NCBI GenBank assembly: GCA_020351875.1
Contig: CP070671.1
Span: 577,203 to 641,202, forward strand
DNA length: 64,000 nt
Direction of reading: 5' to 3'
Source: Chromatiales bacterium
GTDB taxonomy: Bacteria; Pseudomonadota; Gammaproteobacteria; Steroidobacterales; GCA-2729495
Below, piece after piece: positions 3,160 through 29,630 of this stretch (within the stretch, counting starts at the first letter, position 1; the number at the start of each line of letters is the position of its first letter). Below the pieces are notes generated by a model, which worked only from the letters and a program-made list of their open reading frames with translations, made no database searches and was not told the origin of the DNA. The translations under genes and the position numbers were made by a program.

Positions 3160-3951
3160 GTGAACGACAAACCCAAGAAAATGAAGCGCAAGGGCTTTCA
3201 GAGGGAGCTGGAGAAGCTTCAGACAGAGCTCTGTCACCTGCAGGATCACGTGGTCGAGCACGAAATCAAGGCCATCGTGGTTTTCGAAGGTCGCGATGCG
3301 GCGGGGAAAGGCGGCGTGATCAAGCGGATTACCGAACGTGTGAGCCCGCGCGTGTTCCGCGTCGTGGCGCTGCCGAAGCCCAGCGACCGCGAGAAGACGC
3401 AGTGGTACCCCCAGCGCTATATCCAGCACTTCCCGGCCGGCGGGGAAATCATGCTGTTCGACCGCAGCTGGTACAACCGCGCCGGCGTGGAGCGGGTGAT
3501 GGGCTTCTGTACTAAGCAGGAGTACGAGCGGTTCCTGCGCACGGCGCCGCTATTTGAGGAGGAACTGGTTGAGCAGGGTATTCGGATCATCAAGTACTTC
3601 TTCGATGTGAGCCAGGAAGAACAGAAAAAGCGCTTCCATGCTCGAATGACGGATCCGATGCGCCACTGGAAGCTGAGCCCGATGGACGTGGAGTCCTACC
3701 AGCGCTGGTGGGACTACACCGCCGCCTACGAGCGCATGCTCGAAGCCACGGATACGGCAGCCTGTCCGTGGTACCGGGTTCAGGCCGACGACAAGCGCCG
3801 GGCCCGGCTGAACTGCATCTCCCACCTGTTGAGCCTGTTCGACTACGACGAGCAGGACTGGGTCGCACCGGACCTCGGCGAACGCAAGAAGAAAAAGCCC
3901 GGCACGCCCGACGTGCTCGAGTTCAAGCACACGGTGCCGTCGGTTTACTGA
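3160..3951 (+). CDS. ppk2: Polyphosphate kinase 2 (PPK2 family)
   Basis: Transfers phosphate between polyphosphate and a nucleotide (classically making GTP or ATP from the diphosphate) in the cytoplasm. The 263-residue length fits a one-domain PPK2. The Walker A region GRDAAGKGG is at residues 44-52, and the Walker B/lid region with FDRSWYNRAG is near residues 100-109. A basic Lys-rich N terminus precedes the kinase domain. The start is GTG 3160, following an AGGAAGAG-like site about 10 nt upstream. Substrate preference (ADP, GDP or AMP) cannot be assigned from motifs alone. The last 50 or so codons recur in degenerate form at 5813-5968, downstream of the next gene. Confidence 0.93.
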   Translation: MNDKPKKMKRKGFQRELEKLQTELCHLQDHVVEHEIKAIVVFEGRDAAGKGGVIKRITERVSPRVFRVVALPKPSDREKTQWYPQRYIQHFPAGGEIMLFDRSWYNRAGVERVMGFCTKQEYERFLRTAPLFEEELVEQGIRIIKYFFDVSQEEQKKRFHARMTDPMRHWKLSPMDVESYQRWWDYTAAYERMLEATDTAACPWYRVQADDKRRARLNCISHLLSLFDYDEQDWVAPDLGERKKKKPGTPDVLEFKHTVPSVY

Positions 3952-29015: not shown

Positions 29016-29630
29016 TCAGTCGATCGTGATACTGTGCTTTTTCGACCGCTTCAGTTTCGGCATCTTCAGTTCCAGCAGGCCGTCCTTGTAGGTGGCCTTG
29101 GTCCTGCGCCCGTCCACCGCGTCCGGCAGCGTGACCGTGCGTACGAACGCGCCCGCGCTGATTTCGCGCCGGTGGATATCGCCTTCGGTCTTCTCTTCTT
29201 CGTGGCGCGTCTTACCCTTGATGGTAAGGCTGCGGTCGCCGACGTTGATCTCCAGGTTTTCTTTGTCCACGCCCGGGATTTCGGCACGTGCGATGATGGC
29301 CGTGTCGCGGTCGATGATGTCCACTGACGGTGGCCGGCCTTCGAAGAAGCCAGTGAAATCCATCGTCGGCGGCCACTCCCAGTTGAGCGGATTCGGGAAC
29401 CGGCTTTTGCGGAAACGCTCGAGGAGGGATTCCAGTTCGGCGATCGGCGCCAGCAGTCGGGATTCCAGGGACACTTCCGGCGCCGCTGCACTCTTCACCG
29501 GCGCCTTGGCCTTGGCGGCGGGTTTCTTCGCGGCTGCGGCCTTCTTCGCCGGCTTCTTGGCGGCTGTCTTTCGGGTGGCCGTCTTCGAGGTCTTTTTGCG
29601 GGTCGTCTTTTTCTTACGGGTCGTCGCCAT
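29016..29630 (-). CDS. Small heat-shock protein (Hsp20) with histone-H1-like N-terminal tail
   Basis: A 204-residue protein with two parts. Residues 1-55 are a Lys/Ala/Thr/Arg-rich, low-complexity tail (TTRKKKTTRKKTSKTATRK, then AAKKPAKKAAAAKKP) of the kind found in bacterial histone H1-like proteins. From about residue 70 comes an alpha-crystallin domain: VDIIDRDTAIIARAEIPGVDKEN, then LTIKGKTRHEEEK and the closing FVRTVTLPDAVDGR...YKDGLLELKMPK. It lacks an IXI motif; the end is SITID. Start ATG 29630 has GAGGTGG 5 nt upstream. The combination suggests an sHSP targeted to nucleic acid, which is inference. Confidence 0.9.
   Translation of the reverse strand: MATTRKKKTTRKKTSKTATRKTAAKKPAKKAAAAKKPAAKAKAPVKSAAAPEVSLESRLLAPIAELESLLERFRKSRFPNPLNWEWPPTMDFTGFFEGRPPSVDIIDRDTAIIARAEIPGVDKENLEINVGDRSLTIKGKTRHEEEKTEGDIHRREISAGAFVRTVTLPDAVDGRRTKATYKDGLLELKMPKLKRSKKHSITID

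Follow-up and report, generated by a model that had tools for sequence, protein, structure and literature searches.

Small heat-shock proteins (sHSPs) act as ATP-independent, oligomeric holdases. Proteins that join a folded domain to a disordered K/A/P-rich, histone H1-like tail are known from Pseudomonas, where PhaF and AlgP bind DNA through their KPAA tails and position granules (PMC9239181). The partner there is a phasin or helical domain rather than an sHSP, and the tail is C-terminal and, in AlgP, longer than the one described here. In actinobacteria, TopA, HupB and Ku carry similar K/A-rich tails on a working domain, with stronger DNA binding or processivity, and lysine repeats stabilize TopA on DNA (PMC7398561). 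These are DNA proteins already, whereas the partner of the present tail is a chaperone. Chlamydial Hc2 (Pfam HC2) is alike in tail composition, but it is a stand-alone nucleoprotein and the tailed sHSPs are not members of the HC2 family. Within the sHSP superfamily itself, RNA binding and granule association are described for IbpA (PMC10474464, PMC10646324). E. coli IbpA binds its own mRNA, and this RNA binding depends on a conserved arginine (PMC10474464).

No sHSP bearing a tail of this kind came to light in a search of the open-access literature. Here we describe one from a Chromatiales bacterium, encoded in a 64,000-nucleotide stretch of DNA (the window, here meaning the whole stretch analyzed).

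Architecture of the tailed sHSP

The open reading frame is real, and neither a chance frame nor the product of a mis-called start. It runs on the minus strand from an ATG at 29630 to a stop at 29016, with a good ribosome site (GAGGTGG) ~5-6 nt upstream of the ATG. Tail and remainder have GC3 values of 0.82 and 0.80, so the tail is codon-matched coding sequence, and the earlier note's argument from the ribosome site that the tail is translated holds. Two internal starts, GTG45 and GTG53, lack a good ribosome site; ATG90 is preceded by GGGAG, but a start there would remove the N-terminal arm as well. With no well-placed internal start that retains the arm, and with the ribosome site, the codon use and a tailed paralogue all favoring the full frame, a mis-called start or frame artefact was rejected. 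Homologues beginning near residue 55, which the earlier note had counted against the tail, were not encountered in that form: the orthologues start ahead of the arm, with a charged leader of 10-30 residues.

Residues 2-51 comprise 16 K, 3 R, 16 A, 8 T and 4 P with no D or E, bearing out the earlier description of ~55 Lys/Ala-rich, strongly cationic N-terminal residues of the H1 type. When the longest non-overlapping ORFs of the window are compared, no other 50-residue stretch is as rich in lysine (16 K here vs 5 in the runner-up). An AlphaFold model computed from the single sequence is of low quality (pLDDT 51) and supports the fold class only; in this low-confidence model the tail has no secondary structure and a helix is predicted at residues 55-76, within the arm. 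The tail thus has the Lys/Ala-rich, disordered composition of an HC2-type nucleoprotein, with the disorder taken from that same model. The Pfam HC2 profile gave no match to the protein at E<=1, and the DNA encoding the tail contains only a weak repeat.

Behind the tail, the protein has every testable feature of an sHSP. Pfam HSP20 matched residues 105-203 (PF00011, E=4e-20; 72 bits against a cut-off of 20.8), the only other Pfam match was to an HSP20-like ArsA domain model, and PDB searches returned sHSPs by sequence and, weakly, by fold. Pfam gave HSP20-type matches alone, with no phasin domain of the PhaF type. The C-terminal IXI-type motif is ITI at 201-203, corresponding to VKL in the paralogue and in the tailed protein of another genome of the genus (G003). 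The match to the NCBIfam model of IbpA was weak. To our knowledge, IbpA lacks a tail of this kind. The earlier view that the remainder is an ordinary alpha-crystallin domain (ACD) applies to residues ~105-203 but overlooked the conserved hydrophobic N-terminal arm, as residues 52-100 align with that of the orthologues. Its corollary, that the tail takes the place of the usual oligomer-controlling N terminus, fails, the arm being intact behind the tail (~52-100). On the same alignment, an origin by fusion of the tail to an ACD that had lost its arm was rejected. The intact arm, together with orthologues bearing a short charged leader, argues for expansion of the leader instead.

Table 1. Features of the tailed sHSP gene (window coordinates) and tailed proteins elsewhere in the genome (locus coordinates, with related loci).
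Feature	Location	Strand	Basis
Tailed sHSP, 204 aa	29016..29630	-	ORF and translation; Pfam HSP20; GAGGTGG before ATG
H1-like cationic tail, residues 1-51, net +19	29478..29630	-	Composition, charge, codon use; unstructured in low-confidence model
Conserved N-terminal arm, residues 52-101 (EVSLESRLLAPIAELESLLERFRK...NWEWPP...FFEGRPP)	29328..29477	-	Alignment to orthologue arm 'SPFEEMERLFESFFPRGWLRPFRWEWP..PFEGR'
ACD (from ~102) and C-terminal IXI-type motif ITI (201-203)	29019..29327	-	Pfam 105-203; PDB sHSP matches
DksA with ~200-residue K/A/R/T-rich H1-like N-terminal tail	L214:806-1795; L285	+	Pfam
Stand-alone 140-aa protein, almost wholly KRKT/KRKA-type repeats	L280:157-576 (G000:C1:3302056); L282, L283	+	
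Polysaccharide-deacetylase-family enzyme, 45-residue K/R-rich N-terminal tail	L201:624-1670; L219-L248	-	
Phasin-like protein, lysine-rich C-terminal tail, ~1.7 kb from sHSP paralogue	L037:6687-7217	+	

Tailed relatives and similar tails on other proteins

The same genome contains three further HSP20 genes, two of them tail-less and the third a tailed paralogue of 274 aa, 43% identical overall to the window sHSP, with a ~95-residue tail of net charge +37. The paralogue matched Pfam HC2 (histone H1-like) at E=4e-7 and 30.7 bits, below the curated cut-off of 40. Slippage probably contributed to its tail, judging from a 15-nt unit present in 6.3 tandem copies. G003 encodes a 238-aa tailed sHSP (57-residue tail, net +29), and a genome from another family of the same order (G131) a 190-aa form with a shorter tail of net +11. 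In a tree of 84 proteins built from arm and ACD columns only, with the tail excluded, the three long-tailed proteins formed a clade (99/94) and were joined by the G131 protein in a four-member clade (100/94). Grouping of the tailed proteins on a tree without tail columns suggests that the tail is old in this clade and survived both a duplication and the divergence of genera; it probably predates the paralogue duplication. Tail composition is kept across the clade while the sequence drifts.

The orthologue group is spread through the class, with matches to the tailed profile at E<=1e-27 in 69 of 369 sampled class genomes. These HSP20 orthologues have the arm ('SPFEEMERLFE..RGW.RPF.WEWP'), ACD and C-terminal motif in common with the window protein, with identity to the tailed protein of at most 57% over ACD columns and 49% over arm plus ACD. 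Ahead of its ACD, a typical orthologue has the sequence 'MAKEKKAVKKRKESHYLSPFDEMERLFESRFPRGWMRPFQLEWPSWGEKTAPFAGKSP'. The other orthologue leaders read are 10-30 residues long with net charge of at most +9, and most mix K and E, in contrast to the almost purely cationic long tails of 51-95 residues. A short charged leader was probably ancestral in the group.

Tailed forms were surveyed in 40 family, 396 order, 369 class and 398 phylum genomes. Among the leaders read in these, no other tailed form stood out beyond the four-member clade; the best new matches of the phylum search begin at model position ~68 and most at ~130, behind the tail, so that this search speaks to the sHSP part and not to N termini. 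A contig scan of the genomes with the window protein as query gave remote matches only. The clade itself is represented in 2 of the 5 genus genomes and in 1 of the 22 genomes of G131's family, a patchy presence attributable to loss, transfer or incomplete assemblies. Among the leaders read, tail plus ACD thus recurs in the paralogue, the genus and the intermediate G131 form.

Profile and pattern searches of the genome identified at least the further tailed proteins of Table 1, as well as a topoisomerase I-like open frame whose C-terminal tail is rich in lysine, and an AlgP-like protein with C-terminal KKA/RKK repeats, both named from inspection of their sequences. DksA is likewise H1-tailed in G003. 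The KRKT-repeat protein had no Pfam match and is likely an H1-like nucleoprotein; its counterparts in two genus members are 153 and 91 aa long, with upstream sequence in common. Copying of the sHSP tail from this stand-alone gene was rejected, as the likeness of the window tail to it is no more than composition predicts (p=0.075 for protein, 0.48 for DNA). For the paralogue tail, the DNA comparison gave a weak and indecisive signal. The leader of the deacetylase-like enzyme differs in length between genera of a single family, being all but absent in some ('MSELTQSRHY', 'MAELTQSEHY') and reaching ~75 residues at its longest. Similar tails on unrelated proteins, and the varying length of this one, suggest that such tails are a labile add-on in the lineage.

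Possible roles of the tail

By analogy with the tailed DNA-binding proteins above, we put at about even the chance that the tailed sHSP is a holdase tethered to a polyanion, the likeliest ligand being the nucleoid and/or RNA. The starting form would have been an ordinary sHSP of the gammaproteobacterial class, with arm, ACD and IXI motif, whose short charged leader probably grew in one small clade into an H1-like polycation of 45-95 residues. An sHSP oligomer, if formed as expected for the family, would display many flexible tails and could bind polyanions with high avidity, and the tether would keep the holdase close to the sites at which stress unfolds DNA-bound and nascent proteins. The nucleoid is a plausible location chiefly in that other proteins with such tails in the genome are linked to DNA or RNA polymerase; tethering to RNA, polyphosphate or granules, or plain solubility, are possible alternatives. 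Retention of the tail in the four-protein clade and the like tails on DksA, topoisomerase I and the AlgP-like protein, together with the stand-alone KRKT-repeat protein, speak for a tether. Against it, the same type of tail is borne, at lengths from almost nil to ~75 aa, by a deacetylase-like metabolic enzyme, indicating that tails can be gained and lost on proteins that have no evident link to DNA, and the sparse occurrence of the tailed sHSP within its genus and in G131's family suggests that it is dispensable or mobile. If the tail does bind DNA or RNA, it would direct a bacterial chaperone to the nucleoid or to RNA, and the case could reveal how a cell whose interior lacks membranes positions its protein quality control.

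A wider reading, somewhat unlikely in our judgment, is that H1-like tails may be a general, evolvable address tag by which unrelated proteins are brought to a single polyanionic compartment, among them the sHSP, DksA, topoisomerase I, the phasin-like protein and the deacetylase-like enzyme, with the tailed sHSPs as a nucleoid-resident class. The same tail on unrelated proteins, with presence varying among close relatives, offers a natural experiment on whether cationic tails serve as such a tag.

It is unlikely that the tail serves as a granule tether, with the arm and ACD coating polyhydroxyalkanoate (PHA) granules, or the tail binding polyphosphate, and the tail linking granule and nucleoid in the way suggested for PhaF and AlgP (PMC9239181). 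PhaC, PhaR and a phasin are encoded in the genome and a polyphosphate kinase 2 (PPK2) in the window, but the pha and ppk genes do not lie beside the sHSP gene, and PPK2 is ~25 kb away. The phasin-like protein with a K-rich C-terminal tail close to the paralogue fits such a tether, but it had no Pfam phasin match over the cut-off. In P. extremaustralis, Hsp20 as well as HU was detected on PHA granules (PMC4041789); in P. putida, granules were found to carry IbpA (PMC10646324); and polyphosphate granules are organized by AlgP (PMC9239181). Nothing in these granule papers indicates a tailed sHSP.

We consider it improbable that the tail is a solubility or charge tag, which would separate substrate-loaded oligomers or modulate assembly with no specific polyanion target. 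The predicted lack of structure, the similar tail on the unrelated deacetylase-like enzyme and the short charged leaders already present on orthologues are all compatible with this, but those leaders mostly mix K and E, and an almost purely cationic tail (+19 to +37) favors polyanion binding. Quite improbable is near-neutral expansion, in which K/A codon repeats lengthen at N termini by slippage and are tolerated: the tandem repeat of the paralogue, the swings in deacetylase tail length and the recurrence of K-rich N termini in the family are in line with it, but the window tail repeat is weak, all four clade members keep the cationic composition in frame, and the tails of the paralogue and G003 resemble each other above composition (z=5.4, where unrelated tails reach 3-4 in the same test).

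Genomic context

Upstream of the sHSP gene, on the same strand and across a gap of ~170 bp, lie genes for a glyoxalase-fold protein, MeaB, a propionyl-CoA carboxylase subunit and methylmalonyl-CoA mutase; its position suggests that the glyoxalase-fold neighbor is methylmalonyl-CoA epimerase. There is no indication of a functional link to propionate metabolism, since other genes flank the paralogue and the G003 gene. No convincing sigma-32 (heat-shock) or sigma-70 promoter was seen upstream of the sHSP gene, and no RNA thermometer or other Rfam element scored over threshold there. The paralogue is adjoined by a gene (L037:5532-6422, plus strand) for a ferredoxin-dependent bilin reductase-like protein with a weak C-terminal PCP_red match. 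PPK2 is encoded at 3160-3948 of the window on the plus strand (PF03976, E=1e-98).
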